DNA of 64,000 nt from NCBI GenBank assembly GCA_015143295.1, contig JABCRI010001169.1:19427-83426 (forward strand), read 5' to 3'. A program made the position numbers and the translations under genes. Shown here in pieces: positions 22,101 through 47,924 of this stretch (position 1 is the stretch's first letter; each line of letters starts with the position of its first letter). The notes under the pieces were generated by a model that saw only the letters and a list, made by a program, of their open reading frames with translations, was not told the origin of the DNA and made no database searches. Origin of the DNA: Tetracentron sinense. Taxonomy: Eukaryota; Streptophyta; Magnoliopsida; Trochodendrales; Trochodendraceae.

Positions 22101-23822
22101 TTGGATTTAAAAACATGCATTTTATCAAATAACATTGAAATCCATTCACAGGTTTTGATTTTGTGTGCATTTGTAGGTTTAGGCTGATGTATATTTTCTA
22201 AGTATGGATTCCGAGCCTTCCAGTGCATAAATCGGGCAAATGACCTCGACTTCCATTGAGACAAATTCACACACTTAGATTGGATCGAAATACACGTGTT
22301 AAATCAAATGACATCAAAATCAAATCGCAGGTTGTGATTTTGTGTGCCTTTAAAGGTTTAGGCCGATGCATACTTTCTAAGTACGGATTTTGAGCCACTC
22401 GGTGCCCAAATCGGGAAAACGACCTCGGATTCCAACGAAACGAATTCCCACTCTTAGGTTTGGTCAAATTACGTGCATTAGAAGAAACGATATTAAATTC
22501 CAACCCCCGGTTTGGAGTTGGAGCCCTTTTTTATGTTTAGGCCGAAGTATAGTTTCTAGGTATCATTTCGGCCTCTCGGTGTGCCATTCAGGCAAACGAC
22601 CACAGATTCAATTGAATCCAATTCCCACACTTAGGTTGGGTCGAAATACATTCGTTAGAAGAAACAATGTCGAAATCCGACCCCCGGATTGGATTTGGTG
22701 CGCGTTTGTAGGTTTAGGCCGAAATCAAGGAAACAACCTCGGATTCCATCGAAACGAATACCCACACTCAGGTTTGGTCGACATACTGGCGTTAAAAGAA
22801 ACAACAGCGAAATTTGACCCCCGGTTTTGAATTGGTGCGCTTTTTTACGTTTAGGCTGAAGTATACTTTCTAAATATGGATTTCGGCCTCTCGATGCGTA
22901 AATTGGGCAAACGACCACGGATTCCATCGAAACGAATTGCCACACTTAGGTTGGATCGAAATACGCACGTTAAATCAATTAACATTGAAATCCGATCACA
23001 GGTTTGGATTTTGTGCACGTTTGTAGGTTTAGGCTGAAGTATATTTTCTAAGTATGGATTTCGAGCCTTTCAGTGCATAAATCGGGCAAATGACCTCGAC
23101 TTCCATTGAAACAAATTCCCACACCTAGGTTGGATCGAAATACACGCGTTAAATCAAATGACATCGAAATCCGATCACAGGTTGAGATTTGGTGCGTGTT
23201 TGTAGGTTTAGGCTAAAATTTAATTTCTAAGTATGAATTTCGGGTCTCTCTGTGCCCAAATAGGGGAAACGAACTCGGATTCCATCGAAACGAATTCTCA
23301 CACTTATGTTGGATCGAAATACACGTGTTAGAAGAAATGACATCAAAATCCGATCACAGGTTTGGATTTCTAGCGCGTTTGAAGGTTTAGGCCGAACTAT
23401 ACTTTCTAAGTATGGATTTCGAGCCTCTCGGTGCCCAAATCGGGCAAACGATCTCGGATTCCATCGAAAACAAATTCCCACACTTTGGTTTGGTCGAAAT
23501 ACATGCGTTAGAAGAAATGACATTGAAAACCAAACCCAGTTTGGAATTGGATTGGTTTTTTATGTTTAAGCCAAAGTACAGTTTCTAGGTATGGATTTCG
23601 GACTCTCGGTGCGCCATTCGGGCAAAAGACCATGGATTCAATCGAATTGAATTACCAAATTTTGGTTGGGTCGAAATACATGCGTTAGAAGAAACCGTAT
23701 CACCATCCAGACCCCGGTTTCGATTTGGTGCGCGTTTGTAGGTTCAGGCCGAAGAATACTTTCTAAGTATGGATTTCGAGCTTCACGGTGCGTAAATTGG
23801 GCAAACGACCACGGATTCTATC
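16129..23822 (+). repeat. ~178-bp satellite array, block 2 (+ orientation)
   Basis: The same satellite continues in the same orientation as block 1. A distinctive run of subtypes appears repeatedly. First comes tttagaccgatgtatactttcaacgt, then tttcagtgcataaatcgggc, then gagccactcggtgcccaaat, then a monomer with tagtttctaggtatgg. This run occurs near 17520-17860, 19890-20500 and 22010-22600, and again in blocks 3 and 4, showing a long higher-order order beyond the basic 178 bp. I see no gene. Confidence 0.93.
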
Positions 23823-23973
23823 TTCTTTTTTTTTTTGGGAGGGTAAGCTCGGGTTAGGCGGACCCCGACCAGAATATATATAGAAAGTGAAAGAGTTACA
23901 ATCTAAGGTATTTACAACCAGATCTATCCTCTTCCATAATAGAGGAGAGAGCTACAGGAAAATCCCCTGGAAG
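23823..23973 (-). mobile_element. LINE tail copy 1 of the composite repeat (cut short)
   Basis: Only 151 bp. The 3' UTR and poly(T) are as in the others, but the piece ends at ccctggaag and joins directly to satellite (taagtataaattt), where other copies continue ~70 bp more. Copy 2 starts only 394 bp further on, so this edge of the domain looks rearranged. Confidence 0.85.
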
Positions 23974-24216
23974 ATTTTTTAAGTATAAATTTCGGACTCT
24001 CCGTGCGCAAATTGAGCAAACGACCTCGGATTCTACTGAAATGAATCCTCACACTGAGGTTGGATTGAAATAGACATGTTAGAAGAAATGCCATCAACAT
24101 CTGGTCACAGGTTTGGATTTCTAGCGCGTTTGTAGGTTTAGGCCGAAGTATTACTTTCTAAGTACGGATTTGGGCTTCTCGGTGCGTAAATTGGGCATTC
24201 GACCACGGATTCTATC

Positions 24217-24440
24217 TTTTTTCTTTTTTTTTGGGAGGGTAAGCTCGGGTTAGGGGGTCCCCGACCAGAATATATAGAGAAAGTGAAAGAGTTAAAATCT
24301 AAGGTATTTACAACCAGATCTATCCTCTTCCATAATAGAGGAGAGAGCTACAAGAAAATCCCCTGGAAGAAGAACAAAAGCAATAGGAAAGGTGCAATAA
24401 TTGGCTAAAAAATCTGCTCCCCGATTGCTTTCACGCTAAA
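24217..24440 (-). mobile_element. LINE tail copy 2 of the composite repeat
   Basis: 224 bp, with poly(T) interrupted by one c. It encodes the last ~45 codons of the LINE RNase H domain on the - strand, then a ~75-base 3' UTR. Right junction is ctaaa|tatcgaaac. Confidence 0.9.
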
Positions 24441-24840
24441 TATCGAAACAAATTCTCACAATTAGGTTGGATTGAAATACATGGGTTAGATGAAATGATA
24501 TCGAAATCCGATCACAGGTTTGATTTGGTGCGTGTTTGTAGGTTCAGGCCAAAATTTACTTTCTATGTATATGAATTTCGGGTCTCACTGTTCCCAAATC
24601 GGGGAAACGAACTCGGATTCCATCGAAACGAATTCTCACACTTAGGTTGGATTGAAATACAGGCCTTAGAAGAAATAGAATTGAAATCTAACCCCCGGTT
24701 TAGATGTGGTGCACTTTTTTAGGTTTGGGACGAAGTATACTTTCTAAGTATAAATTTCGGCCTCTCGGTGCGCAAATCGAGCAAATGACCTTGGATTCTA
24801 CCGAAATGAATTCTCACACAGAGGTTGGATTGAAATACAT

Positions 24841-25072
24841 TTTCCCCGCTTGCTCCTTTAGGACTGCCCATTCCCTTCCTTCTATTGTGCCTATCTATTA
24901 TGAAGTAGGGTCCTCGAACCCCGCTTATTCCGACACCCTGGTACTAGAGTAGGTTAGCCCGTTAACTCCGATTAGGTATCCTTCAAAAGGCAAGTCAAAG
25001 GCCCCGGCACCACAGTTGGGACTCCCCTCTCGCGTCTAATTCTAGTGTATAGTGTCTAGTCTGTCTAAGATT
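24841..25072. other. 232-bp non-satellite patch, possibly organelle-derived
   Basis: Sequence from tttccccgcttgctccttta to tctgtctaagatt interrupts a C monomer between gaaatacat and gttagaagaaatg, with no satellite bases obviously lost. It has roughly even base composition, no long ORF, no poly(A), no terminal repeats and no clear target duplication. Its style (gggtcctcgaaccccgc, ggccccggcaccacagttgg) resembles plant mitochondrial intergenic DNA, but I cannot confirm this without a search. Confidence 0.5.
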
Positions 25073-25567
25073 GTTAGAAGAAATGAAATCAAAATCCGAT
25101 CACAGGTTTGGATTTCTAGCGCGTTTTTGTAGGTTTAGGCCGAAGTATACTTTCTAATTATGGATGTCGGCCTCTCGGTGCGCCATTCGGGTTAACGACC
25201 ACAGATTCAATCGAATCGAATTCCCACATTTTGGTTGTGTTGAAATACAAGCGTTAGAAGAAACGGTATCGAAATCCGGCCCCCGGTTTGAATTTGGGGC
25301 ACGTTTGTAAGTTTAGGCCGAAGAATACTTTCTAAGTATGGATTTCGAGCCTCACAGTGCCCAAATCAAGGAAACAACCTCGGATTCCAACGAAACGAAT
25401 TCTTACACTCAGGTTTGGTCGACAAATTGGTGTTAAAGGAAACAACATCGAAATCCGACCCGGTTTTGAATGAGTATGCTTTTTTACGTTTAGGCTGAAG
25501 TATACTTTCTATGTATGGATTTCGGTCTATCGGTGCGTAAATTGGGCAAACGACCACGGATTCTATC

Positions 25568-25791
25568 TTTTTTTTTTTTTTTGAGGAGGGTAAGCTTGGG
25601 TTAGGCGAACCCCGACTAGAATATATATAGAAATTGAAAGAGTTACAATCTAAGGTATTTACAACCAGATCTATCCTCTTCCATAATAGAGGAGAGAGCT
25701 GCAGGAAAATCCCATGGAAGAAGAACAAAAGCAATAGGAAAGGTACAATAATTGCCTAAACAATCTGCTCCCCGATTGCTTTCACGCCAAA
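25568..25791 (-). mobile_element. LINE tail copy 3 of the composite repeat
   Basis: 224 bp, same junctions as copy 2. On its right, half a monomer later, a different and longer LINE tail is inserted (25877-26222). Confidence 0.9.
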
Positions 25792-25876
25792 TATCGAAAC
25801 GAATTCCCACACTTAGGTTGGATTGAAATACACGGCTTTGATCCAATGATATCGAAATCCGATCAAAAGTTTGATT

Positions 25877-26222
25877 ATTTTTTTTTTTTTGGAAGGTAAG
25901 CTGGGGGTTAGGTAGACCCCGACCAGATATATAAATTAAAAAAGAAAAGGGATTACAATCTAAGGTAATTACAACCCGATCTGTCCTTTTCCAAAATGGA
26001 TAAAAGTGCAGAGGGAAACTCCCTTGGCAAAAGAACAATAGAGCTATTGAGAATACAAAATTTGGCTAGAAAATCAGCTGCCGAGTTACTTTCCCGCCAA
26101 ATATGATGAATAGAATATGCTCAAAACTGGGATAGCATGAGAATACATCTCATAACTAAATTCGCCAAGTACCAAGGAGGATCATTAGAAGCGTTCAGTA
26201 ACTGAGAGGCTTGCAGTGAAGT
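25877..26222 (-). mobile_element. Independent LINE tail, longer form, inserted in a composite unit
   Basis: 346 bp on the - strand: poly(T) at ~25878-25890, 3' UTR, then the C-terminal part of the RNase H domain (IHHIWRESN-like end). It interrupts the satellite word caggtttgatttggtgcg, and tgatt is present on both sides as a probable short target duplication. Its sequence is almost the same as the LINE tail at 52826-53300 and clearly different from the fourteen composite-repeat tails. It is therefore a separate, later insertion. Confidence 0.85.
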
Positions 26223-27038
26223 CTGATTTGGAGCGTGTTTTTAGGTTTAGGGCAAACTTTACTTTCTAAGTATGAATTTTGGGTCTCACTATGCCCAAAT
26301 CGGGGAAACAAATTCGGATTCCATCAAAACGAATTCTCACACTTAGGTTGGATCGAAATACATGCCTTAGAAGAAATAGCATTGAAATTTAACCGCCAAT
26401 TTAGATGTGGTGCACTTTTTTAGGTTTGGGATGAAGTATATTTTCTAAGTATGAATTTCGGCCACTCAGTGCGCAAATCGAGCAAATGACCTCGGCTTCT
26501 ACCGAAACAAATTATCACACTGAGATTGGATTGAAATACACATGTTAGAAGAAATGACATCAAAATCCGATCACAGGTTTGGATTTGTAGCGCGTTTGTA
26601 GGTTTAGGCCGAAGCATACTTTCTAAGTATGGATTTCGGCCTCTCGGTGCGCCATTCGGGCAAACGATCACCGATTCAATCAAATCGAATTCCCTCATTT
26701 TGGTTGGGTCGAAATACATGCGTTAGAAGAAACAGTATCGAAATCCGGCCCCCGTTTTGAATTTGGTGTGCGTTTGTAGGTTTAGGCCGAAGAATACTTT
26801 CTAAGTATGGATTTCGAGCCTCACGGGGCCCAAATCGGGTAAACTACCTCGGATTCCATCGAAACAAATTCCCACACTCAGGTTTGGTTGACAAACTGGT
26901 GTTAAAAGAAACAACATCGAAATCCGACCCCCGGTTTTGAATTGGTGTGCTTTTTTATGTTTAGGCTGAAGTATACTTTCTAAGTATGGATTTCGGCCTC
27001 TCGATGCATAAATTGGGCAAACGACCACAGATTCTATC

Positions 27039-27259
27039 TTTTTTTTTTTTTGGGAGGGTAAGCTCGGGTTAGGCAGACCCCGACCAGAATATATATGGAA
27101 AGTGAAAGAGTTACAATCTACGGTATTTACAACCAGATCTATCATCTTCCATAATAGAGGAGAGAGCTACATGAAAATGCCTTGGATGAAGAACAAAAGC
27201 ACTAGGAATGGTACAATAATTGCCTAAAAAATCTGCTCCCAGATTACTTTCACGCCAAA
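27039..27259 (-). mobile_element. LINE tail copy 4 of the composite repeat
   Basis: 221 bp, same junctions. It shares the variants atgccttgga and tctacggtatt with copies 8 and 14, so these three belong to one sub-lineage. Confidence 0.9.
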
Positions 27260-28153
27260 TATCGAAACGAATTCCCACACTTAGGTTGGATTGAAATACA
27301 CGGGTTAGATCAAATGACATCGAAATCCGATCACAGGTTTGATTTGGTGCGTGTTTGGAGGTTAAGGCCAAAATTTACTTTCTAAGTATGAATTTTGGGT
27401 CTCACTGTGCCCAAATCGGGGAAACGAACTCGGATTCCATCGAAACGAATTCTCACACTTAGGTTGGATCGAAATACACGCCTTAGAAGAAATAGCTTTG
27501 AAATCTAACCCCCGGTTTAGATGTGGCGCACTTTTTTAGGTTTGGGATGAATTGTACTTTCTAAGTATAAATTTAGGCCTCTCGGTGCGCAAATCGCGCA
27601 AATGACATTGGATTCTACCGAAACGAATTCTCACACTAAGGTTGGATTGAAATACACATGTCAGAAGAAATGACATCAAAATCCGATCATAGGTTTGGAT
27701 TTCTACCGTGTTTGTAGGTTTAGGCCAAAGTATACTGTATAAGTTTGGATTTCGGCCTCTCAGTTCGCCATTCGGGCAAACGACCACAGATTCGATCGAA
27801 TCGAATTCCCACATTTTGGTTGTGTTGAAATACATGCGTTAGAAGAAACAGTATCGAAATCCGGCCCCCGGTTTGAATTTGGTGCGCATTTGTTGGTTTA
27901 GGCCGAAGAATACTTTCTAAGTATGGATTTCGAGCCGCACAGTGCCCAAATGAAGGAAACTACCTCGGATTCCAACGAAACGAATTCTTACACTCAGGTT
28001 TGGTCGACAAACTGGCGTTAAAGGAAAAAACATCGAAATCCGACCCCGGTTTTGAATGAGTATTCTTTTTTACGTTTAGGCTGAAGTGTACTTTCTATGT
28101 ATGGATTTCGGTCTATGGGTGCGTAAATTGGGCAAACGACCACGGATTCTATC

Positions 28154-28374
28154 TACTTTTTTTTTTTGGGAGGGTAAGCTTGGGTTGGGCGGACCCCGAC
28201 CAGAATATATATTGAAACTGAAAGAGTTACAATCTAAGGTATTTACAACCAGATCTATCCTGTTCCATAATAGAGGAGAGAGCTGCAGGAAAACCCCTGG
28301 AAGAAGAACAAAAGCACTAGGAAAGGGACAATAATTGGCTAAAAAATCTGCTCCCCGATTGCTTTCACGCCAAA
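28154..28374 (-). mobile_element. LINE tail copy 5 of the composite repeat
   Basis: 221 bp, beginning actttttttttt. Right junction is gccaaatatcgaattgaattc, with the adjoining satellite slightly changed. It lies 1115 bp after copy 4. Confidence 0.9.
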
Positions 28375-29622
28375 TATCGAATTGAATTCCCACACTTAGG
28401 TTGGATTGAAATACATGGCTTAGATCCAATGATATCGAAATCCGATCACAGGTTTGATTTGGTGCGTGTTTTTAGGTTTAGGGCAAACTTTACTTTCTAA
28501 GTATGAATTTTGCGTCTCACTATGCCCAAATCGGGGAAACGAACTCGGATTCCATCAAAACGAATTCTCACACTTAGGTTGGATCGAAATACATGCCTTA
28601 GAAGAAATAGCATTGAAATCAAACCCCCAGTTTAGATGTGGTGCACTTTTTTAGGTTTGGGACGAAGTATACTTTCTAAGTACAAATTTCGGCCTCTCGA
28701 TGCGCAAATCGAGCAAATGACCTCGGATTCTACCGAAACAAATTCACACTGAGATTGAATTGAAATACACATGCTAGATGAAATGACATCAAAATCCGAT
28801 CACAGGTTTGGATTTCTAGCGCGTTTGTAGGTTTAGGCCGAAGTATACTTTCTAAGTTTGGATTTCGGCCTCTCGGTGTGCCATTCGGGCAAACGACCAC
28901 GGATTCAATCGAATCGAATTCCCACATTTTGGTTGGGTCGAAATACATGCGTTAGAAGAAACAGTATCGAAATCCGGCCCCTGTTTTGAATTTGGTGCGC
29001 GTTTGTAGGTTTTTGCCGAAGAACACTTTCTAAGTATGGATTTCGAGCCTCATGGTGCCCAAATCTGGGAAACTACCTCGGATTCCATCGAAACAAATTC
29101 CCACACTCAGCTTTGGTTGACAAACTGGCGTTAAAAGAAACAACATCGAAATCCGACCCCCGGTTTTGAATTGGTGTGCTTTTTTATGTTTAGGCTGAAG
29201 TATACTTTCTAAGTATGGATTTCGGCCTCTCGGTGCGTAAATTGGGCAAACGACCACGGATTCAATCGAATCGAATTCCCACATTTTGGTTGTCTTGAAA
29301 TACATGCGGTAGAAGAAACAGTATCGAAATCCGGCCCCCGGTTTGAATTTGGTGCGTGTTTGTAGGTTTAGGCCGAAGAATACTTTCTAAGTATGGATTT
29401 CGAGCCTCACTATGGCCAAATCAAGGAAACTACCTCAGATTCCTACGAAACGAATTCTTACACTCAGGTTTGGTCGACAAACTGGCGTTAATGGAAAAAA
29501 CATCGAAATCCGACCCCCGGTTTTGAATGAGTATGTTTTTTTACGTTTAGGCTGAAGTATACTTTCTATGTATGGATTTCGCAATATCGGTGCAAATTGG
29601 GCAAACGACCCCAGATTCTATC

Positions 29623-29849
29623 TTTTTTTTTTTTTTTTTTTGGTTGGGTAAGCTCGGGTTAGGCGGACCCCGACCATAATATATATAGAAACTGAAAGAG
29701 TTACAATCTAAGGTATTTACAACAAGATCTATCCTCTTCCATAATAGAGGAGAGAGCTGCAGGAAAATCCCCTGGAAGAAGAACAAAAGCACTAGGAAAG
29801 GTACAATAATTGCCTAAAATATCTGCTCGCCGATTGCTTTCACGTCAAA
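29623..29849 (-). mobile_element. LINE tail copy 6 of the composite repeat
   Basis: 227 bp with a long ~20-base poly(T). The unit on its left is 1469 bp, i.e. two extra monomers: D and E occur twice in 28850-29600. Confidence 0.9.
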
Positions 29850-31094
29850 TATCGAAACGAATTCCCACACTTAGGCTGGATTGAAATACACGGCTTAGAT
29901 CCAATGATATCGAAATCCGATCACAGGTTCGATTTGGTCCGTGTTTTTAGGTTGAGGGCAAACTTTACTTTCTAAGTATGAATTTTGGGTCTCACTATGC
30001 CCAAATCGGGGAAACGAACTCGGATTCCATCAAAACGAATTCTCACACTTAGGTTGGATCGAAATTCATGCCTTAGAAGAAATAGCATTGAAATCTAACC
30101 CCCATGTGGTGCACTTTTTTAGGTTTGGGACGAAGTATACTTTCTGAGTATAAATTTCGGCCTCTCGGTGCGCAAATCGAGCAAATGACCTCGGATTCTA
30201 CCGAAACAAATTCTCACACTAAGATTGGATTGAAATTCACATGTTAGAAGAAATGACATCAAAATCCGATTACATGTTTTGATTTCTGGCGTGTTTGAAG
30301 GTTTTGGCCGAAGTATACTTTCTAAGTATGGATTTCGACCTCTCGGTGCGCCATTCGGGCAAACAACCATGGATTCAATCGAATCGAATTCCCACATTTT
30401 GTTTGGGTCGAAATACATGCGTTAGAAGAAACAGTATCGAAATCCGGCCCTCGGTTTGAATTTGGTTCGCGTTTGTAGGTTTAGGCCGAAGAATACTATC
30501 TAAGTATGGATTTCGAGCCTCACGGTGCCCAAATCTGGGAAACTTCCTCAGATTCCATCGAAACAAATTCCCACACTCAGGTTTGGTTAACAAACTGGCG
30601 TTAAAAGAAACAACATCGAAGTCCGACCCCCGGTTTTGAATTCGTGTGCTTTTTTATGTTTAGGCTGAAGTATACTTTCTAAGTATGGATTTCGGCCTCT
30701 CGGTGCGTAAATTGGGCAAACGACCACGGATTCAATCGAATCGAATTCCCACATTTTGGTTGTGTTGAAATACATGCGTTAGAAGAAACAGTTTCGAAAT
30801 CCGGCCCCCGGTTTGAATTTGGTGCGTGTTTGTAGGTTTAGGCTGAAGAATAATTTTTAAGTATGGATTTCGAGCCTCACAGTGCCCAAATCAAGGAAAC
30901 TACCTCGGATTCCAACGAAACGAATTCTTACACTCAGGTTTGGTCGACAAACTGGCGTTAAAGGAAACAACATCGAAATTCGACCCCCGGTTTTGAATGA
31001 GTATGTTTTTTTACGTTTCAGCTGAAGTATACTTTCTATGTATGGATTTCGCTCTATCGGTGCGTAAATTGGGCAAACGACCATGGATTCTATC

Positions 31095-31318
31095 TTTTTT
31101 TTTTTTTTTTGGGAGGGTAAGCTCAGGTTAAGCGGACCCCGACCATAATATATATAGAAACTGAAAGAGTTACAATCTAAGGTATTTACAACCAGATCTA
31201 TCCTCTTCCAGAATAGAGGAGAGAGCTGCAGGAAAATCCCCTGGAAGAAGAACAAAATCACTAGGAAAGGTACAATAATTGCCTAAAAAATCTGCTGCCC
31301 GATTGCTTTCACGCCAAA
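31095..31318 (-). mobile_element. LINE tail copy 7 of the composite repeat
   Basis: 224 bp, same junctions. The unit to its left is 1472 bp with the same two-monomer expansion as the previous unit, so the seven-monomer form was itself duplicated. Confidence 0.9.
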
Positions 31319-31969
31319 TATCGAAACGAATTCCCACACTTAGGTTGGATTGCAATACACGGCTTAGATCCAATGATATCGAAATCCGATTACAGGTTTG
31401 ATTTGGTGCGTGTTTTTAGGTTTAGGGCAAACTTTACTTTCTAAGTATGAATTTTGGGTCTCACTATGCCCACATCGGGGAAACGAACTTGGATTCCCTC
31501 AAAACGAATTCTCACACTTAGGTTGGATCGAAATACATGCCTTAGAAGAAATAGCATTGAAATCTGACCCCCAGTTTAGATGTGGTGCACTTTTTTAGGT
31601 TTGGGACGATGTATACTTTCTAAGTATAAATTTCGGCCTCTCGGTGTGCAAATCGAGCAAATGACCTCGGATTCTACCGAAACAAATTCTCACACTGAGA
31701 TTGGATTGAAATACACATGTTAGAAGAAATGACATCAAATCCGATTACAGGTTTGGATTTCTAGCGCGTTTGTAGGTTTAGGCAGAAGTATACTTTCTAA
31801 GTATGGATTTCGGCCTCTCGGTGCACCTTTCGGGCAAACGACCATGGATTCAATCGATCTAACGAAATACATGCGTTAGAAGAAACAGTATCGAAATTCG
31901 GCCCCCGGTTTGAATTTGGTGCACATTTCTAGGTTTAGGCCGAAGAATACTTCTAAGTATGGATTTCGA

Positions 31970-34130
31970 GCCTCACGGTGCCCAAATTGGGGAAACTACC
32001 TCGGATTCCATCTAAACAAATTCCCACACTCAGGTTTGGTTGACAAACTGGCGTTAAAAGAAACAACATTGAAATCCGACCCCCGGTTTTGAATTGGTGT
32101 GCTTTTTTAGGTTTAAGCTGAAGTATACTTTCTAAGTATGGATTTCGGCCTCTCGGTGCGTAAATTGGGCAAACGACCACGGATTCTATCTTTCTTTCTT
32201 TTTTGGGGAGGGTAAGCTCGGGTTAGGCAGACCCCGACCAGAATATATATGGAAAGTGAAAGAGTTACAATCTACGGTATTTACAACCAGATCTGTCCTC
32301 TTCCATAATAGAGGATAGAGCTACAGGAAAATGCCTTGGATGTAGAACAAAAGCACTAGGAATGGTACAATAATTGGCTAAAAAATCCGCTTCCAGATTG
32401 CTTTCATGCCAAATATCGAAACGAATTCCCACACTTTGGTTGATTGAAATACACGGGTTAGATCAAATGACATCGAAACGAATTCCCACAGTTTCCAAGT
32501 ATGAATTTTGGGTCTCACTGTGCCCAAATCGGGGAAACGAACTCGGATTCCGTCGAAACAAATTCTCACACTTAGGTTGGATCGAAATACACGCCTTAGA
32601 AGAAATAGCATTGAAATCTAACCCCCGGTTTAGATGTGGTGCACTTTTTTATGTTTGGGATGAAGTATACTTTCTAAGTATAAATTTAGGCCTCTCGGTG
32701 CGCAAATCGAGCAAATGACATCGGATTCTACCGAAACGAATTCTCACAATGAGGTTGGATCGAAATACACATGTTAGAAGAAGTGGATCAAAATCCGATC
32801 ACAGGTTTGGATTTCCAGCCCGTTTGAAGGTTTAGACTGAAGTATAGTTTCTATGTATAGATTTCGAGCCTGCCGGTACCCAAATCAGGCAAACGATCTC
32901 GGATTCCATCTAAACGAATTCCCACACTTTGGTTTGGTTGAAATACGTTCGTTATAAGAAACGACATTGAAATCTGAACCCGGTTTGGAATTGGAGCGCT
33001 TTGTTACATTTAGGCTGATGTATACTTTCTAACTACGGATTTTGGCCTCTTGGTGCGCCAATCAGGCAAATGACCACAGATTCAATCGAAACGAATTCCC
33101 AAACTTAGGCTGGATCGAAACACATGCATTACAAGAAATGACATCGAAATCCGATCACAGGTTTGGATTTCTTGCGCGTTTGTAGGTTTAGGCCAAAGTA
33201 TACCTTCTAAGTATGGATTTCAAGCCTGTCGGTGCCCAAATCGAGCAAACGTCCTCGGATTCCATCGAAACAAATTCGCACAACTTGGTTTGGTCGAAAT
33301 ACAAGCGTTAGAAGAAATGACATCAAAATTCGACCTCCGGTATGGAATTGGGGCGCTTTTTTACGTGTAGGCCGAAATTTAGTTTCTAGGTATGGATTTC
33401 GACCTCTCGGTGCGCCATTCGGGCTAACAACCACGGATTTAATCGAATCGAATTACCACACGTAGGGTGGGTCGAAATACATGCATTAGAAGTAATGGCA
33501 TCGAAATCTGACCCCCGGTTCTAATTTAGTCCGTATTTGTAGGTTTAGCCTGAAGTATACTTTCGAAGTATGGATTTCAAGTCACTCGATGCCCAAATCG
33601 GGGAAATGACCTCGGAAACCATTGAAATGAATTCCCACACTGAGGTTTGGTCAAAATATAGGCGTTACAAGTAACGACATCAAAATCCGACCCCCGGGTT
33701 TGAATTAGTGCGCTTTTTTACGTCTAGGCGGAAGTATATATAGATTTCGGCATCTCGAAACCCAAATCGGGCAAATGAACTCGGATTCCATCGAAACAAA
33801 TTCTCACACTTAGAATGGCTCGAAATACACGTGTTAGAAGAAACGTCATCGAAATCTGACCCCCGGTTTTGAGGTGTTGCTCTTTTTTAGGTTTAGGACG
33901 AAGTATATTTTCAAAGCATGGATTTTGGCCTCCCGGTGCAAAAATTGGGCAAATAACCTCGGATTCTATTGAAATGAATTCCCACACTTAGGTTGGATCG
34001 AAATACACGTGTTAGAAGAAATGACATCGAAATGCGAGCACAGGTTTGGAATTTGTGCGGGTTTGTAGGCTTAGATCGAGGTATACTTTCTAAGTACGGA
34101 TTTCGAGTCTCTAGGTTCGCAAATAATGCA
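31970..34130 (+). repeat. Segmental duplicate, left copy (~2.1 kb)
   Basis: Distinctive words recur at a constant offset of 7358 bp: gttacatttaggctgatgta at 33003/40361 and catctcgaaa at 33751/41109. The segment includes LINE tail 8 and about ten satellite monomers. Borders are approximate, read by eye. Confidence 0.75.
32191..32413 (-). mobile_element. LINE tail copy 8 of the composite repeat
   Basis: 223 bp, poly(T) broken by c residues, of the copy 4/8/14 sub-lineage. Shortly to its right the A monomer is rearranged (a second gaaacgaattcccac near 32475), and the next LINE tail is 2311 bp away. Confidence 0.9.
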
Positions 34131-34501
34131 AACGACCTCGGATTGCATCGGAACAATTTCCACACTCAGGTTTGGTCGACACATGCGTTAGAAGAAATGT
34201 GATCAAAATCTGATCACAGGTTTGGATTTCTATCCGGTTTGAAGGTTTAGACCAAGTATACTTTCTAAGTATGGATTTCGAGCCTGCCAGTGCCCAAATC
34301 AGGCAAACGATCTCGGATTCCATCGAAACGAATTCTCACACTTTGGTTTGGCCGAAATACGTTCGTTATAAGAAACGACATTGAAATCTGAACCCGGTTT
34401 GGAATTGGAGCGCTTTTTTACGTCTAGGCTCAAGTATACTTTCTAAGTATGGATTTCGGCTGCTCGGTGCATAAATTGGGCAAACAACCACGGATTCTAT
34501 C

Positions 34502-34722
34502 TTTTTTTTTTTTTGGGCGGGTATGCTCGGGTTAGGCGGACCTTGACCAGAATATATATAGAAAGTGAAAGAGTTACAATCTAAGGTATTTACAACCAGA
34601 TCTATCCTCTTCCATAATAGAGGAGAGAGTTACAGGAAAATCGCCTGGAAGAAGAACAAAAGCACAAGGAAAGGTACAATAATTGGCTAAAAAATCTGCT
34701 CCCCAATTGCTTTCACGCCAAA
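34502..34722 (-). mobile_element. LINE tail copy 9 of the composite repeat
   Basis: 221 bp. It starts the most regular stretch of the domain: the next four copies follow at 1116, 1118, 1122 and 1122 bp. Confidence 0.9.
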
Positions 34723-35617
34723 TATTGAAACGAATTGCCACACTTAGGTTGGATTGAAATACACGGGTTAGATCAAATGATATCGAAATCCGATCACAAG
34801 TTTGATTTGGTGCGTGTTTGTAGGTTTTGGCCAAAATTTACTTTCTAAGTATGAATTTCGGGTCTATCTCTGCCCAAATCGGGGAAACGAACTCGGATTT
34901 CATCGAAACGAATTCTCACACTTAGGTTGGATCGAAATACACGCCTTAGAAGAAATAGAATTGAAATCTAACCCCCGGTTTAGATGTGGTGCACTTTTTT
35001 AGCTTTGGGACGAAGTATACTTTCTAAGTATAAATTTCGACCTCTCAGTGCGCAAATCGAGCAAATGACCTCGGATTCTACCGAAACGAATTCTCACACT
35101 GAGGTTGGATTGAAATACACATGTTAGAAGAAATGAAATCAAAATCCTATCACAGGTTTGGATTTCTAGCCTGTTTGTAGGTTTTGGCCGAAGTATTCTT
35201 TCTAAGTGTGGATTTCGGCCTCTCGGTGCGCCATTTGGGCAAATGACCACGGATCAATCGAATCGACTTCCCACTATTTGGTTGGGTCGAAATACATGCA
35301 TTAGAAGAAACAATATCGAAATCCGGCCCCCAGTTTGAATTTGGTGCACGTTTGTAGGTTTAGGCCGCAGAATACTTTCTAAGTATGGATTTTGAGCCTC
35401 ACGATGCACAAATCAAGGAGACTACTTCGGATTCAATTGAAACGAAGACCCACACTCAGGTTTGGTCAACAAACTGGCGTTAAAAGAAACAACATCGAAA
35501 TCCGACCCCCAGTTTTGAATTGGTGCGCTTTTTTTACGTTTAGGCTGAAGTATACTTTCTAAGTATGGATTTCGGCTTGTCGGTGCGTAAATTGGGCAAA
35601 CGACCACGGATTCTATC

Positions 35618-35840
35618 TTTTTTCTTTTTTTTGGGAGGGTAAGCTCGGGTTAGGCGGACCCCGACCAGAATATATATAGAAAGTGAAAGAGTTACAATCT
35701 AAGGTATTTACAACCAGATCTATCCTCTCCCACAATAGAGGAGAGAGCTACAGGAAAATCCCCTGGAAGAAGAACAAAAGCTCTAGGAAAGGTACAATAA
35801 TTGGTTTAAAAATCTGCTCCCCGATTGCTTTCACGCCAAA
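35618..35840 (-). mobile_element. LINE tail copy 10 of the composite repeat
   Basis: 223 bp. With the satellite up to 36735 it forms a clean type unit of 1118 bp: LINE tail, then A-half, B, C, D, E, A-half. Confidence 0.9.
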
Positions 35841-36735
35841 TATCGAAACGAATTCCCACACTTAGGTTGGATTGAAATACACGGGTTAGATCAAATGATT
35901 TCGAAATCCGATCACAGGTTTGATTTGGTGCGTGTTTGTTGGTTTAGGCCAAAATTTACTTTCTAAGTATGAATTTCGGGTCTCACTGTGCCCAAATCGG
36001 GGAAACGAACTCGGATTCCATCGAAACGAATTCTCACACTTAGGTTGGATCGAAATACACGCCTTAGAAGAAATAGCATTGAAATCTAACCCCCAGTTTA
36101 GATGTGGCGCACTTTTTTAGGTTTGGGACTAAGTATACTTTCTAAGTATAAATTTTGGCCTCCCGGTGCGCAAATCGAGCAAATGGCCTCAGATTCTACT
36201 GAAACGAATTCTCACACTGAGGTTTGTTTGAAATACACATGCTAGAAGAAATGACATCAAAATCAATTCATAGGGTTGGATTTCTACCGTGTTTGTAGGT
36301 TTAGGCCGAAGTATTCTTTCTAAGTATGGATTTCGGCTTCTCGGTGCGCCATTCGGGTTAACGACCACGGTTTCAATCGAATCGAATTCCCACATTTTGG
36401 TTGGGTCGAAATACATGCGTTAGAAGAAACAGTATCGAAATCCGACCCCCAGTTTCAATTTGGTTCGCGTTTGTAGGTTTAGGCCGAAGAATACTTTCTA
36501 AGTATGGATTTCGAGCCTCACAGTGCCCAAATCCAGGAAACTACCTCGTATTCCATCGAAACGAATTCTTACACTCAGGTTTGGTCGACAAACTAGCGTT
36601 AAAGGAAACAGCATCGAAATCCGACCCCCGGTTTTGAATGAGTATGCTTTTTTACGTTTAGACTGAAGTATACTTTCTAAGTATGGATTTCGGCTTGTCG
36701 GTGCGTAAATTGGGCAAACGACCACGGATTCTATC

Positions 36736-36961
36736 TTTTTTCTTTCTTTTTTTTGGAGGGTAAGCTCGGGTTAGGCGGACCTCGACCAGAATATACATAG
36801 AAACTGAAAGAGTTACAATCTAAGGTATTTACAACCAGATCTATCATCTTCCATAATAGAGGAGAGAGCTGCAGGAAAATCCCCTGGAAGAAGAACAAAT
36901 TTACTAGGAAAGGTACAATAATTGGCTAAAAAATGTGCTCCCCGATTGGTTTCACTCCAAA
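36736..36961 (-). mobile_element. LINE tail copy 11 of the composite repeat
   Basis: 226 bp. It shares private variants with copy 12 (gtgctccccgattggtttcac, atatacatag), marking the pair as products of a recent unit duplication. Confidence 0.9.
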
Positions 36962-37857
36962 TATCGAAACGAATTCCCACCCTTAGGTTGGATTGAAATA
37001 CACGGGTTAGATCCAATGATATCGAAATCCAATCAAAGGTTTGATTTGGTGCTTGTTTTTAGGTTTAGGCCAAAATTTACTTTGTAAGTATGAATTTTGG
37101 GTCTCACTATGCCCAAATCGGGGAAATGAACTCAGATTCCATCGAAACGAATTCTCACACTTAGGTTGGATCGAAATACATGCCTTAGAAGAAATAGCAT
37201 TGAAATCTAACCCCCAGTTTAGATGTGGTGCACTTTTTTAGGTTTGGGACGAAGTATACTTTCTAAGTATAAATTTCGGCCTCTAGGTGCGCAAATCGAG
37301 CAAATGACTCGGATTCTACTGAAAAAAAATTCTCACACTGAGATTGGATTGAAATACACATGTTAGAAGAAATGACATCAAAATCCGATCACAGGTTTTG
37401 ATTTCTAGCTCATTTTTGTAGGTTTAGGCTGATGTATACTTTCTAACTATGGATTTCGGCCTCTCGGTGCGCCATTCGGGTTAACGACCATGGATTCAGT
37501 CGAATCGAATTCCCACAATTTGGTTGGGTCGAAATACATGCGTTAGAAGAAACAGTATCGAAATCCAGCCCCCGGTTTCAATTTGGTTCGCGTTTGTAGG
37601 TTTAGGCCGGAGAATACTTTCTAAGGATGGATTTGAGCCTCACGGTGCCCAAATCAAGGAGACTACCTTAGATTCCATCGAAACGAATTCCCACACTCAG
37701 GTTTGGTTGACAAACTGGCGTTAAAAGAAACAGCATCGAAATCCGACCCCCAGTTTTGAATTGGTGCCATTTTTTACGTTTAGGCTGAAGTATACTTTCT
37801 AAGTTTGGATTTCGGCTGCTCAGTGCGTAAATTGGGCAAACGACCACGGATTCTATC

Positions 37858-38082
37858 TTTTTTTTTTCTTTTTTGGGAGGGTAAGCTCGGGTTAGGCGGA
37901 CCTCGACCAGAATATACATAGAAACTGAAAGAGTTACAATCTAAGGTATTTACAACCAGATCTATCATCTTCCATAATAGAGGAGAGAGCTGCAGGAAAA
38001 TCCCCTCGAAGAAGAACAAAATTACTAGGAAAGGTACAATAATTGGCTAAAAAATGTGCTCCCCGATTGGTTTCACTCCAAA
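37858..38082 (-). mobile_element. LINE tail copy 12 of the composite repeat
   Basis: 225 bp, nearly the same as copy 11. The whole 1122-bp unit that begins here repeats the unit before it with only about eight differences that I could find. Confidence 0.92.
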
Positions 38083-38979
38083 TATCGAAACGAATTCCCA
38101 CCCTTAGGTTGGATTGAAATACACGGGTTAGATCCAATGATATCGAAATCCAATCAAAGGTTTGATTTGGTGCTTGTTTTTAGGTTTAGGCCAAAATTTA
38201 CTTTGTAAGTATGAATTTTGGGTCTCACTATGCCCAAATCGGGGAAATGAACTCAGATTCCATCGAAACGAATTCTCACACTTAGGTTGGATCGAAATAC
38301 ATGCCTTAGAAGAAAGAGCATTGAAATCTAACCCCCAGTTTAGATGTGGTGCACTTTTTTAGGTTTGGGACGAAGTATACTTTCTAAGTATAAATTTCGG
38401 CCTCTAGGTGCGCAAATCGAGCAAATGACCTCGGATTCTACTGAAAAAAAATTCTCACACTGAGATTGGATTGAAATACACATGTTAGAAGAAATGACAT
38501 CAAAATCCGATCACAGGTTTTGATTTCTAGCTCATTTTTGTAGGTTTAGGCTGATGTATACTTTCTAACTATGGATTTCGGCCTCTCGGTGCACCATTCG
38601 GGTTAACGACCATGGATTCAGTCGAATCGAATTCCCACAATTTGGTTGGGTCGAAATACATGCGTTAGAAGAAACAGTATCGAAATCCAGCCCCCGGTTT
38701 CAATTTGGTTCGCGTTTGTAGGTTTAGGCCGGAGAATACTTTCTAAGTATGGATTTGAGCCTCACGGTGCCCAAATCAAGGAGACTACCTTAGATTCCAT
38801 CGAAACGAATTCCCACACTCAGGTTTGGTTGACAAACTGGCGTTAAAAGAAACAGCATCGAAATCCGACCCCCAGTTTTGAATTGGTACCATTTTTTACG
38901 TTTAGGCTGAAGTATACTTTCTAAGTTTGGATTTCGGCTGCTCAGTGCGTAAATTGGGCAAACGACCACGGATTCTATC

Positions 38980-39200
38980 TTTTTTTTTTTTTGGGAGGGT
39001 GTGCTCGGGTTAGGCGGACCTCGACCAGAATATATATAGAAAGTGAAAGAGTTACAATCTAAGGTATTTACAACCAGATCTATCCTCTTCCATAATAGAG
39101 GAGAGAGCTACAGGAAAATCCCCTGGAAGAAGAACAAAAGCACTAGGAAAGGTACAATAATTGGCTAAAGAATCTGCTCCCTGATTGCTTTCACGCCAAA
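38980..39200 (-). mobile_element. LINE tail copy 13 of the composite repeat
   Basis: 221 bp, returning to the copy 9/10 variant type (atatatatagaaagtg). Only two monomers separate it from copy 14. Confidence 0.9.
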
Positions 39201-39344
39201 TATCGAAATGAATTGCCACACTTAGGTTGGATTGAAATACACGGGTTAGATCAAATGATATCGAAATCCGATCACAAGTTTGATTTGGTGCATGTTTGTA
39301 GGTTTAGGGAAAAATTTACTTTCTAAGTATGAATTTCGGGTCTC

Positions 39345-41485
39345 ACTTTGCCCAAATCTGGGAAACTACCTCGCATTCCATCGAAACAAATTCCCACACT
39401 CAGGTTTGGTTGACAAACTGGTGTTAAAAGAAACAACATCGAAATCCGACCCCCGGTTTTGAATTGGTGTGTTATTTTATGTTTAGGCTGAAGTTTACTT
39501 TCTAAGTGTGGATTTCGGCCTCTCGGTGCGTAAATTGGGCAAACGACCCCGGATTCTATCTTTTTTTTTTTTTGGGAGGGTAAGCTCGGGTTAGGCAGAC
39601 CCTGACCAGAATATATATGGAAAGTAAAAGAGTTACAATCTACGGTATTTACAACCAGATCTGTCCTCTTCCATAATAGAGGAGAGAGCTACAAGAAAAT
39701 GCCTTGGATGAAGAACAAAAGCATTAGGAATGGTACAATAATTGGCGAAAAAATCTGCTCCCAGATTGCTTTCACGCCAAATATCGAAACGAATTCCCAC
39801 ACTTAGGTTGGTTTGAAATACAGGGGTTAGATCAAATGACGTCGAAATCCGATCACAGGTTTGATTTGGTGCTTGTTTGGAGGTTTAGGCAAAAATTTAC
39901 TTTCTAAGTATGAATTTGGGGTCTCATTGTTCCCAAATCGGGGAAACGAACTCGGATTCCATCGAAACGAATTCTCACACTTAGGTTTAGATGCGGTGCA
40001 CTTTTTTAGGGTTGGGATGAAGTATACTTTCTAAGTATAAATTTCGGCCTCTCAGTGCGCAAATCGTGCAAACGACCTCGGATTCTACCGAAACGAATTG
40101 TCACAATGAGGTTGGATCGAAATACACATGTTAGATGAAATGGCATCAGAATCCGATCACAGGTTTAAATTTCTAGCCCGTTTGAAGGTTTAGACCGAAG
40201 TATACTTTCTAAGTATGGATTTCGAGCCTACCGGGGCCCAAATTGGTGAAACGATCTCGGATTCCATCGAAACGAATTCCCACACTTTGGTTTTGTCGAA
40301 ATACATTCGTTAGAAGAAACGACATTGAAATCTGAACCCGGTTTGGAATTGGAGCGCTTTGTTACATTTAGGCTGATGTATACTTTCTAACTACGGATTT
40401 TGGCCTCTTGGTGCGCCAATCGGGCAAATGACCACGGATTCAATCGAAACGAATTCCCAAATTTAGGCAGGATCGAAACACACGCATTAGAAGAAATGAC
40501 ATCGAAATCCGATCACAGGTTTGGATTTCTTGCGCGTTTGTAGGTTTAGGCCAAAGTATACCTTCTAAGTATGGATTTCAAGCCTGTCGGTGCCCAAATC
40601 GAGCAAACGTCCTCGGATTCCATCAAAACGAATTCGCACAACTAGGTTTGGTCGAAATACATGCGTTAGAAGAAATGAAATGAAAATCCGACCTCCGGTA
40701 TGGAATTGGGGCACTTTTTTACGTGTAGGCATAAGTTTAGTTTCTAGGTATGGATTTCGACCTCTCGGGGCACCATTCGGGCTAACGACCACGGATTTAA
40801 TCGAATCGAATTACCACACGTAGGGTGGGTCGAAATACATGCGTTAGAAGTAATGGCATCGAAATCCGACCCCCAGTTCTAATTTAGTGCGCGTTTGTAG
40901 GTTTAGCCTGAAATATACTTTCGAAGTATGGATTTCAAGTCTCTCAGTGCCCAAATCGGGGAAATGACCTCGGATTCCATTGAAACGAATTCCCACACTG
41001 AGGTTTGGTCAAAATATAGGCGTTACAAGTAACGACATTGAAATCCGACCCCCGGTTTTGAATTAGTGCACTTTTTTACGTCTAGGCGGAAGTATATATA
41101 GATTTCGGCATCTCGAAACCCAAATTGGGCAAATGAACTCGGATTTCATCGAAACGAATTCTCACACTTAGAATGGCTCGAAATACACATGTTAGAAGAA
41201 ACGGCATCGAAATCTGACCCCCGGTTTTGAGGTGTTGCTCTTTTTTAGGTTTAGGACGAAGTATATTTTCTAAGCATGGATTTTGGCCTCCCGGTGCAAA
41301 AATCAGGCAAATGACATCGGATTCTATCGAAATGAATTCCCACACTTAGGTTGGATCGAAATACACGTGTTAGAAGAAATGACATCGAAATGCGAGCACA
41401 GGTTTGGAATTTGTGCGGGTTTGTAGGCTTAGGCTGAGGTATACTTTCTAAGTACGGATTTCGAGTCTCTCGGTTGGCAACACAG
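39345..41485 (+). repeat. Segmental duplicate, right copy (~2.1 kb)
   Basis: Right partner of 31970-34130, containing LINE tail 14. The two copies flank the most regular part of the composite domain, as expected if a ~7.4-kb block was duplicated by unequal exchange. Confidence 0.75.
39561..39781 (-). mobile_element. LINE tail copy 14 of the composite repeat, last in the domain
   Basis: 221 bp, of the copy 4/8/14 sub-lineage. Beyond it the satellite continues without LINE tails. It lies about 7.37 kb after copy 8, and both are followed by corresponding satellite (see 31970-34130 and 39345-41485). Confidence 0.9.
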
Positions 41486-44400
41486 GCGTTAGAAGAAACG
41501 ACATCGAAATCCGAAACGAATTCCCACACTTAGGTTGGATTGAAATACACGGGTTAGATCAAATGACAACAAAATCCGATCACAGCTTTGGATTTGGTGT
41601 GTGTTTGTAGGTTTAGGCCGAAATTTACTTTCTAAGTATGAATTTCGAGTCTCTCTGCTCCCAAATCAGAGAAACGAACTCGGATTCCATCGAAACGAAT
41701 TCTCACACTTAGGTTGGATCGAAATACACGCCTAAAATCAAATCACATCACATCAAAATCCAATCGCAGGTTTGGATTTTGTGCGCGTTTGTAGGTTTAG
41801 GCCGATGTATACTTTCTAAGTATGGATTTTGCGCCACTCGGTGCCAAAATCGGGCAAACGACCTCAGATTCCATCGAAACGAATTCCCACTCTTTGGTTT
41901 GGTCAAAATACGTGCATTAGAAGAAACGACATTGAATTCTGACCCCTAGTTTGGAATTGGAGCGCTTTTTTACGTTTAGGCCGAATTGTAATTTCTAGGT
42001 ATGGATTTCGGCCTCTCAGTGGGCCATTCGGGCAAACGACCACGGATTCAATCGAATCGAATTCCCAAACTTAGGTTTGGTCGAAATACATGCGTGAGAA
42101 GAAACAGTATCGAAATCTGACCCCCGATTTGGATTTGGTGTGCGTTTGTAGGTTTAGGCCGAAAAATACTTTCTAAGTATGGATTTCTAGCTTCATGGTG
42201 CCCAAATCAAGGAAACAACCTCGGATTCCATCGAAACGAATTCCCACACTCAAGTTTGGTCGACATATTGGCGTTAAAAGAAACAGCATCGAAATCCGAC
42301 CCCCGATTTTTAATTGGTGCACTTTTTTTACGTTTAGGCTGAAGTATACTTTCTAAGGATGGACCTCTCGAGGCATAAATTGGGCAAACTACCACGGATT
42401 GTATCGAAACAAATTCCAACACTTAGGTTGGATTGAAATACACGGGTTAGATCAAATGACATCAAAATCTGATCACAGTTTTGGATTTAGTGCGTGTTTG
42501 TAGGTTTAGACCGAAATTTACTTTCTAAGTATGAATTTCAGGTCTCTTTGTGGCCAAATCGGGGAAACGAACTCGGATTCCATCGAAACTAATTCCCACA
42601 ATTAGGTTGGATCGAAATACACGCATTAGAAGAAATGACATCACAATCCGATCATTGGTTTGGATTTCAAGCGCGTTTGTAGATTAGGCCGAAGTATACT
42701 TTCTAGTTTGGTTGAAATACGGGCGTTAGAAGAAATGACATTGAAATCCGAAACTGATTTTGAATTGGAGCCCTTTTTTTCGTTTAGGCCGAATTATACT
42801 TTCTAAGGATGGATTTCGGCCTCTTGGTGCGCCAATCGGGCAAACGACCACGGATTCCATCGAAACGATTTCCACACTTAGGCTAGATTGAAATACACGG
42901 GCTTGAAGAAAAGACATCAAAATCCAATCACAGGTTTGGATTTCTTGCGCGTTTGTAGGTTTAGGCCGAAGTATACCTTCTAAGTATGGATGTCGATCCT
43001 CTCGGTGCCCAAATCGGGCAAACGACCTCGGATTCCATCGAAACGAATTCCCACTACTAGGTTTTGTCGAAATATGTGCGTTAGAAGAAATGACATCAAA
43101 ATCCGAACCCCGGTATTGAATTGGAGTGCTTTTTTACTTTTAGGCCGAAGTATAGTTTCTAGGTATGGATTTTGACCTCTCGGTGCACCATTCAGGCAAA
43201 CGACCACGGATTCAATCGAATCGAATTCCCACATGCAGGGTGGGTCAAAATACATGCGTTAGAAGAAACGACATCGAAATCCGACCCCCATTTCGAATTT
43301 TGTACGCCATTCGGGCCAATGACCACGGATTCAATCGAATCGAATTCCCACACATAGGTTGGGTCGAAATACATGCGTTAGAAGAAACAGTATTGAAATT
43401 CGACCCCCGGTTGGATTTGGTGCGCGTTTGTAGGTTTAGGCCGAAGAATACTTTCTAAGTATGGATTTCGAGCCTCACGGTGCCCAAATCAAGGTAACAA
43501 CCTCGGATTCCATTGAAATGAATTCCCACAGTGAGGTTTGGTCGATAAACTTGCGTTAAAAGAAACAACATCGAAATCCGACCCCCGGTTTTGAATTGGT
43601 GCGTTTTTTACGTTTAGGCTGAAGTATACTTTCTAAGTATGGATTTCGGCCTCTCGGTGTGTAAATTGGGCAAACGACCACGGATTCTAACGAAACGAAT
43701 TCCCACACTTAGGTTGGATTGAAGTACATGGGTCTGATCAAATGAAATCGAAATCCGATCACAGGTTTGGATTTGGTGTGTGTTTGTTGGTTTAGGCCGA
43801 AATTTACTTTCTAAGTATGAATTTTGGGTCTCTCTGTGCCCAAATCGGGGATACGAACTCGGATTCCATCAAAATGAATTCTCACACTTTGGTTGGATCG
43901 AAATACATGCCTTAGAAGAAATAGCATCGAAATCTGACCCCCGGTTTAGATGTGGTGCACTTTTTTAGGTTTGGGACGAAGTATACTTTCTAAGTATAAA
44001 TTTTGGCCTCTCGGTGCGTAAATCGAGCAAACAACCTCAGATTCTACCGAAACGAATTCTCACACTAAGGTTGGATCGAAATACACACGTTAGAAGAATT
44101 GACATCGAAATGCGAGCACAGGTTTAGAATTTGTGCTGGTTTATAGGCTTAGGCCAAGGTATACTTTCTAAGTATGGATTTCGAGCCTCTCAGTTCGCAA
44201 ATCATGCAAACGACCTCGGATTGCATCGAAATGATTTCCCACACTTAAATTTGGTCGAAATACGTGCGTTAGAAGAAACGACACCGAAATCCGACCCCCG
44301 GTTTGGTATTGGTACGTATTTTTTCGTTTAGGCCGAAGTATACTTTCTAAGTATGGATTTCAGGCCTCTCAGTGCCCAAATCGGGCAAACGACCTTGAAT

Positions 44401-46686: not shown

Positions 46687-47034
46687 AAACGTAAACGTAA
46701 AAAATCACTCCAATTCCAAACCGGGTTCGGATTTCAATGTCGTTTATTATAACTCACATATTTCGACCAAACCAAAGTGTGGGAATTCGTTTCGATGGAA
46801 TCCGAGATCATTTGCCCGATTTGGGCATCGAGAGGCTCGAAATCCATACTTAGAAAGTATACTTCAGCCTATACCTACAAACGCGCTAGAAACCCAGACC
46901 TGTGATCAGATTTTGATGTCATTCTTCTAACGCGAGTATTTCGATCCAACCTATTCGTGAAAATTCATTTCGGTAGAATCCGAGGTCGTTTGCTCGATTT
47001 GCGCACCGAGGGGACGAAATTTATACTTAGAAAG

Positions 47035-47924
47035 TTTTTTTTTTTTTTTTTTTAAGGTAAGCTGGGGTTAGGCGGACCCCGACCAGATATATTAATAGAA
47101 AAAGAGATTACAATCTAAGGTATTTACAACCAACTCTGTCCTTCTCAAGAAGAGAAGAAAGATCAGAGGGAAATTCTCTAGGTAAAAGAACTGTATAGGA
47201 GATACTAGGACAAAATTTTGCCAAAAAATCAACACAAGTATTGCTTTCACGCCAAATGTGGTGGATAGAATAAGAGTGGAAATCTGTCAGAAGAAGTTTG
47301 CAGTAAGCAACAAGGTTACTTAGAGTCCAAGGGGGTTCACTGGTGGATTTGAGGAATCTTGTAGCTTGTAAGGAGTCTGAGTCAATCACGAGTTTGTTCA
47401 CACCAAATTGCCGTGCAATTTCCAACCCTCTTGCAATGGCCATGATCTCAAGTTTTAGGATGTCTGTATCAGCTATTCCAGTAGCATAAGCCACCAAAGG
47501 GACACCCAAATTGTTTCGAATGATTCCACCAAAACCTGCACCTCCATTTCTTACATAGCCATCGCTGTTGAGGACCCAATGATCTATTGGGGGAGGGGAC
47601 CAAGAGCACCATAGCTGTGGTTTGATGGTAAATCGAGGATATATCTACCATTGATTCAAAAATCTTCTAGTGTGTGCCGAATCTTCTACCTGGGCAGTGG
47701 ATGCACCAAACTTCAATCTAGTATCGGTGATGATGTTGTTGATAATATTCTCAATGGGCTTGGAAGAATTAGAGAAAATTCTGCTGTTCCTTTCATTCCA
47801 AATATGGTATATCGTGGCACAAAAAACAATTCGCTTAATATTTGGGACTATATTCAAACCATGGAATTCTTTGGCAGCCCATTCCACCTCACGGTCCCAA
47901 GGAAGAATCAAATGAGAGGGGTAG
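47035..47924 (-). mobile_element. LINE, 5'-truncated 3' portion with RNase H domain
   Basis: About 890 bp on the - strand: poly(T) at 47035-47053, 3' UTR (aaggtaagctggggttaggcggacc), then coding sequence with stop after GCKYLRL. Left of the poly(T) the satellite stops at cttagaaag and on the right it resumes at acatctaaacc. About 30 bp of a monomer therefore appear lost, and no clear target duplication remains. It is longer than all other LINE pieces here and belongs to the same family. Confidence 0.88.

Follow-up and report, generated by a model that had tools for sequence, protein, structure and literature searches.

How does the same fragment of a retrotransposon come to stand fourteen times at one place in a satellite array? 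The question is raised by a 64,000-nucleotide stretch of Tetracentron sinense DNA, hereafter the window (bases 19427-83426 of C413, an unplaced contig of 83,426 bp in an assembly of 1.16 Gb; positions are window coordinates unless another contig is named). Its satellite array, built of 178-bp monomers with a G+C content of 42.4%, carries a run of short 3' tails of a long interspersed nuclear element (LINE). An earlier note on this DNA had proposed a single retrotransposition followed by amplification of the LINE together with its neighbouring monomers, and our analysis upholds that proposal. The best explanation, to which we assign a probability of roughly 0.92, is one insertion of an L1-type LINE at the boundary between monomers of types B and C, probably an exchange between monomers of types K and G, tandem amplification and later contraction. 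One insertion with co-amplification is indicated by the shared junctions, the order of the monomers, the similar divergence of tails and monomers, a homologous locus on C21 and the other ends of free LINE copies.

LINE tails and their junctions

A BLAST search of the window with a 245-bp probe from one tail recovered 14 close LINE 3' tails, all on one strand, between 23823 and 39781 (matches reach 39801), with identities to the probe tail of ~90-100% (Table 1). Four more distant LINE pieces found by the same search (73-78%; at 29-133, 25878, 47035 and 52822) were excluded from the tail counts. In the alignment, all 14 tails have the same poly(T) side and the same 3' junction, CTATC-Tn, as the earlier note had read them. 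The common 5' truncation that it described is present in 13, which are 221-227 bp long and join the satellite as GCCAAA-TATCG with scattered point changes (TATTG in T09, GCTAAA in T02 and TCCAAA in T11 and T12 are examples), so that precise alignment found both the insertion point and the truncation point shared by all 13 full tails. The remaining tail, T01, has lost ~75 terminal bp and joins a monomer after about 150 bp. Type B precedes 11 of the 14 tails, and V, F and J precede T01, T02 and T09. The position itself is common to all, however, the final ~35 bases of the preceding monomer being alike in 14/14 whatever its type. A type C monomer follows 12 of the 13 full copies. The mean difference between tails is about 7%, and their amplification is therefore not recent, except for one pair of units that are 99.1% identical.

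Across the genome, the 5'-junction pattern TTTCACGCCAAATATCGAAACGAATTC with up to 3 mismatches occurs at 17 places, 13 on C413 and 4 on C21, and at none elsewhere; its reversed control also gave none. An earlier junction pattern had 9 matches (6 on C413, 2 on C21 and 1 on C10), and the C10 match was rejected as a further tail locus, since BLAST matched neither tail nor monomer at that place. The 3'-junction pattern is weak alone, with 22 places (14 on C413, 2 at the C21 locus and 6 elsewhere) against 27 in the reversed control.

Boundaries between B and C that are free of a LINE read GGATTGTATC followed directly by GAAACAAATTC at 42406, and GGATTCTAAC followed by GAAACG at 43692; C21 has one further boundary of this kind. 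At the filled sites TATC is repeated on both sides of the LINE, which may be a target-site duplication of 1 to 4 bp. The TAT may be LINE sequence, because free LINE copies read GCCAAATATGG (4 of 8) or something close to it (the remaining 4) at the insertion-flank point.

Table 1. Positions of the LINE tails, of selected repeat units and of the flanking satellite
Feature	Position	Strand	Remarks and evidence
T01, 5' part lost, fused to monomer remnant	23823..23972	-	same fusion in C21 tail c1
T02 LINE tail	24217..24440	-	C21 partner c2, 97.5%
T03 LINE tail	25568..25791	-	C21 partner c3, 97.5%
T04 LINE tail	27039..27259	-	BLAST, junction alignment
T05 LINE tail	28154..28374	-	BLAST, junction alignment
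T06 LINE tail	29623..29849	-	C21 partner c4, 97.5%
T07 LINE tail	31095..31318	-	BLAST, junction alignment
T08 LINE tail, then base-array type monomers DKJHNRSOP	32191..32413	-	BLAST, monomer typing
T09 LINE tail	34502..34722	-	BLAST, junction alignment
T10 LINE tail	35618..35840	-	BLAST, junction alignment
T11 LINE tail; whole unit 99.1% identical to T12 unit	36736..36961	-	unit comparison
T12 LINE tail	37858..38082	-	BLAST, junction alignment, unit comparison
T13 LINE tail	38980..39200	-	BLAST, junction alignment
T14 LINE tail, right edge of tail block; base-array CDKJHNRSOP next	39561..39781	-	C21 partner c5, 97.1%
U9-U12, four successive tail+CDFAB units of 1115-1122 bp; clearest higher-order repeat run	34502..38979	+	
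Two CDFABAB units of seven monomers, with the AB dimer doubled	28154..31094	+	
Base 178-bp satellite array left of LINE tails	16132..23822	+	itself an ordered series of many monomer types
Base satellite array right of LINE tails	39786..46684	+	includes LINE-free B-C boundaries at 42406, 43692

Order and divergence of the repeated units

We aligned and clustered 270 monomers (153 from the window and 117 from the C21 homologue) without using the LINE tails; monomer matches on the minus strand, those scoring below 40 bits and those covering fewer than 90 model positions were left out before counting. The blocks after T01 to T07 read F, CDFAB, CDFAB, CDFAB, CDFABAB, CDFABAB and CDFAB, and those after T08 to T13 read.DKJHNRSOPKJ, CDFAB, CDFAB, CDFAB, CDFAB and CB. 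The five-type order that the earlier note had labelled A-B-C-D-E is thus fixed, but is typed C-D-F-A-B, with the tails between B and C. It follows 10 tails, although the clusters were made independently of them, and the region contains 10 copies of the string CDFAB, compared with at most 1 in 10,000 shuffles of the labels. Monomers of the same type are 92.2% identical across the ten CDFAB blocks (225 pairs, minimum 84.7%), and monomers of different types within these blocks 75.8% (100 pairs). Each of the five positions forms one cluster at cut-offs of 0.14-0.18; at 0.12, F and B each split in two. The regular unit of ~1.12 kb, a LINE tail with five monomers, holds for 8 of the 13 inter-tail blocks, two of which contain later insertions, but not for the other five (1, 2, 7, 7 and 12 monomers), and unit length is not regular throughout the array. 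The tail-bearing block is an irregular, aged higher-order repeat.

Tails and monomers have diverged to a similar extent. Among the ten CDFAB units the mean divergence is 7.4% for the tail and 7.7, 5.2, 9.8, 8.5 and 7.9% for C, D, F, A and B, respectively, and the divergence matrices of the tail and of the following monomers are correlated (r 0.45-0.73, p 0.0005-0.03). Over 1119 positions, units U11 and U12 share 99.1% identity; three other compared pairs differ by ~8% each.

The earlier note had placed the unit in an older array. LINE-free base array does flank the tails, but it is not a plain run of monomers: it is itself ordered in many types, the sequence KJHNAOPQMLIEG being present twice, closely spaced, on C21.

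The homologous locus on C21

C413 is collinear end to end with C21:26.113-26.164 Mb at roughly 92-98% identity, with unmatched stretches such as window 1560-16131. On the right side of the tails, an inverted stretch of satellite is 97.4% identical over 4.4 kb, and two other stretches reach 98.4% (1.9 kb) and 97.9% (4.1 kb). The C21 locus (26.14 Mb) bears five tails, c1-c5, separated by the blocks F, CDFAB, CDFABAB and CDFAB; CTATC is kept in four of them and lost in c3. Each pairs with a particular tail of C413: c1 with T01 at 97.4%, a figure that includes the fused non-LINE part, c2, c3 and c4 with T02, T03 and T06 at 97.5% each, and c5 with T14 at 97.1%. Other full tails differ by 4-12%, apart from T11 and T12 (99.0%). 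The CDFABAB block of C21 is closest to U3 at its left end and to U5 at its right end. Because the C21 tails pair with specific tails of C413 and the others stand 4-12% apart, the comparison suggests that most unit duplications are older than the split between C413 and C21, and that C21 may since have lost units. The duplication that gave U11 and U12 looks younger than the split.

Whether C413 is the other allele of the C21 locus, or a paralogous segmental duplicate or homoeologue, changes its label only and leaves the origin of the tails unaffected. We consider the second possibility doubtful. The divergence of 2-3% is high for alleles and C413 is unplaced; however, it is collinear with C21:26.113-26.164 Mb piece by piece across its full length, unmatched stretches included, and unplaced contigs of this kind are often alternate haplotigs. 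A genome search with a C413 flank was uninformative, the flank being a dispersed repeat (best 40 of 5472 candidates scored); the collinear C21 copy was not among the matches listed, although direct comparison puts it at 97.9% there.

Free copies of the LINE

The best 40 of 418 candidates scored yielded 22 listed free relatives of the tails, and we inspected the eight that are closest (91-95% identity to T13). All eight extend past the truncation point of the tails, and the 3' junction of the tails is found in none of the eight; two copies on C5 have one common flank. In a tree that leaves out T01 and c1, the 17 full tails (13 from C413 and 4 from C21) split from the eight free copies with a bootstrap of 82, and a group of T04, T08, T14 and c5 has a support of 100. 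The 17 tails have in common a C/T state where all eight free copies have A/G.

The tails themselves are too short for coding. A free copy at C21:26088844, inside the C21 stretch and 93% identical to T13, has zf-RVT (E 4.7e-22) and RVT_3 (8.8e-8) domains adjoining the tail when stops are read as X, and no domain beyond these two in the next 3 kb. The tail family is an L1-type LINE, since this close relative holds both domains. DUF4283, Exo_endo_phos, RVT_1, zf-RVT and RVT_3 are found in a more distant full-length copy, L062, of the family of the window 47036 piece (~73% to the tails).

The piece at window 47036 and copies L064 and L067 (two of the three being relatives of the tails) all lie on the opposite monomer strand, at positions 112-115 of the monomer, adjoining CTTAGAAA; an insertion preference for this site is possible. 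Copies of the 889-bp LINE at window 47036 cluster with satellite at C3 23.4-23.8 Mb, C5 13.3-13.8 Mb and C6 16.9-18.0 Mb (among the places listed of 239; best 40 of 1349 candidates scored).

Origin of the five-monomer block

The first two thirds of monomer F are like K, and its end is like G, N or J. A K/G or K/N hybrid fits F at 94.9%, against 90.4% for K, the best single parent, and this chimera gain of 0.045 is above that of 20 of 21 control types. At cut-offs of 0.12-0.16 all members of the F cluster lie within the tail region. D is followed by K in the base array, and A-B comes after G there as it does after F in the block; for this reason an exchange between K and G would turn D-K...G-A-B into D-F-A-B. 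T08 and T14 lead into D-K, the un-shrunk order. Judged from these resemblances, the K-G exchange is the likely birth step of the F block.

The history that we propose starts from shared junctions, monomer order, two homologous loci, paired tails and later private insertions. A 5'-truncated L1-type LINE would have inserted once, at a B-C boundary of a pre-existing 178-bp array of many types. Unequal exchange between K and G would then have removed the intervening monomers and created the hybrid F, leaving the compact block LINE-C-D-F-A-B; we infer both this step and its place in the order. Repeated unequal exchange, or an equivalent route of replication or repair, may have multiplied the block in place and given the variants of 1, 2, 7 and 12 monomers. 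Two versions of the locus have diverged by about 2-3%, with five tails on C21, where units were presumably lost, and fourteen in the window. We regard as rather unlikely the further idea that the tail was no passenger, and that its 221-bp unlike stretch set the pairing register, favoured the short block and drove local satellite turnover.

Weighing the alternatives

Several observations weigh against this history. The five blocks of other sizes are one. The monomer that precedes the tail has no significant correlation with it (13.7% divergence, r 0.29, p 0.11), and with T12 removed only C and the downstream B keep p <0.05; both indicate that the units have been reshuffled. The tails match a free LINE copy (90-94%) as closely as they match one another, so divergence alone is no proof of a single insertion. 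As to F, the chimera gain of V, a monomer at the left margin of the tails for which an A/B hybrid is the best fit, is higher (0.051) than its own, 22 members of the F cluster lie outside the tail region at cut-offs of 0.17-0.18, and on sequence resemblance the 3' parent of F could be N as well as G. Finally, LINEs of the tail group enter the satellite repeatedly: the pieces at window 25878 and 47036 and at C21:26087013 lie in it, and satellite forms the 3' flank of the free copies on C18, at C21:25.97 Mb and at C21:26.29 Mb, three of the eight.

These entries lend some colour to recurrent site-specific insertion at one position of the monomer, of the kind reported for L1-CS in Cuscuta, where the published account of C. 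europaea describes a LINE lineage with a preference for two monomer sites (PMC8091179). Monomer position 115 is the end point of both the window 47036 piece and the C18 copy, and the C21:25.97-Mb copy ends at 112. However, the compared satellite insertions outside the tail set are single, sit away from the position of the tails (178), in several cases on the opposite monomer strand, and differ in length. Independent insertions at one site would be expected to vary in 5' truncation, but the 13 full tails have a single truncation point, and the monomers that follow them agree in order and in similar divergence. Recurrent insertion is therefore highly improbable here. The near-equal length of the 13 full copies could also point to a short non-autonomous element, similar to a short interspersed nuclear element, with a fixed 5' end and a target site; as 8/8 of the closest free relatives (of 22 listed) continue as LINE past GCCAAA and have other 3' junctions, we find this barely credible. 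Multiplication or collapse of units by the assembler would be easiest to imagine for an unplaced 83-kb contig with a 99.1% identical pair such as U11 and U12. As an account of the whole array it is very unlikely, with the three other compared pairs ~8% apart and the C21 contig carrying paired tails in the same order at 2.5-2.9% divergence; assembly errors could nevertheless affect the U11/U12 pair and the precise number of copies. One insertion followed by amplification of the block is the reading that we retain.

Other features of the window

Three LINE pieces with poly(T), at 25878-26220, 47036-47924 and 52822-53254, have no counterpart in the C21 homologue. A TGATT duplication is likely at the first; the second and third apparently took the place of about 30 and about 6 bp of target sequence. 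Also missing on C21 is a ~230-bp insertion in a monomer at 24840-25071, both parts of which match other contigs in swapped order and ~300 bp apart, as filler DNA might. The orientation of the satellite array flips at ~46.7 kb (46649-52430), and the C21 homologue is collinear through the flip point. A likely long terminal repeat (LTR) retrotransposon lies within satellite at 7931-16134, its terminal stretches being 98.2-98.7% identical. An Rfam search of the window gave no matches. The assembly contains rbcL-like fragments (29 matches, 28 of them above the cut-off), which together with the architecture of its LINEs point to a plant.

Discussion

The capture of transposons by satellites is known, and the present array is a well-resolved case for a LINE. 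The earlier note took LINE tails that feed satellite evolution as known in principle but held, to its knowledge, a regular unit of this kind to be undescribed for this satellite, which was too strong, as amplification of transposable elements inside satellites appears in published accounts (PMC8091179, PMC4806543, PMC10910784). The nearest likeness is CUS-TR24 of Cuscuta europaea, in which L1-type LINEs occur repeatedly at a fixed satellite position; there the authors considered whether a compound unit had been amplified and preferred recurrent targeted insertion, the LINEs being heterogeneous and their arrangement unconserved (PMC8091179). Both cases have L1-type LINEs at one position of a plant satellite, but here the shared truncation and the block order support a compound unit. 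Sobo of Solanum bulbocastanum is a compound satellite with a 4.7-kb monomer, and copies of satellites of this kind are up to 99% similar (both as cited in PMC8091179). It likewise has other sequence components fixed in a repeated satellite unit, whereas the units described here measure about 1.12 kb, share about 92% identity and occur at one locus. The Oe178 satellite of olive has the same monomer length, 178 bp, with 43.2% GC (PMC4007544) against 42.4% in the present array; six pieces of the present satellite, each of 16-17 bases, matched no papers in a text search.

Duplication after integration has been described for retrotransposons in satellite-rich centromeres, namely in maize CEN10, with its CR elements and CentC higher-order repeats (PMC4806543), and for CRM in Brachypodium (PMC10910784). 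As presented there, these are LTR retrotransposons, unlike the LINE tail of the short repeated block described here. In Arabidopsis, Athila has been copied together with flanking CEN178 satellite; a transposable element copied with its flanking satellite is the likeness, but Athila too is an LTR element. A LINE tail amplified within a higher-order repeat of a plant satellite is described in none of the literature matches listed (titles and abstract openings, with few subscription papers covered).

Two diverged versions of the locus make the capture event unusually clear. Repeated insertion and amplification of a single insertion were argued over for Cuscuta (PMC8091179); the junctions, the truncation and the second locus decide one case here. 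The tail is, moreover, a marker by which the gain and loss of satellite units can be followed individually.

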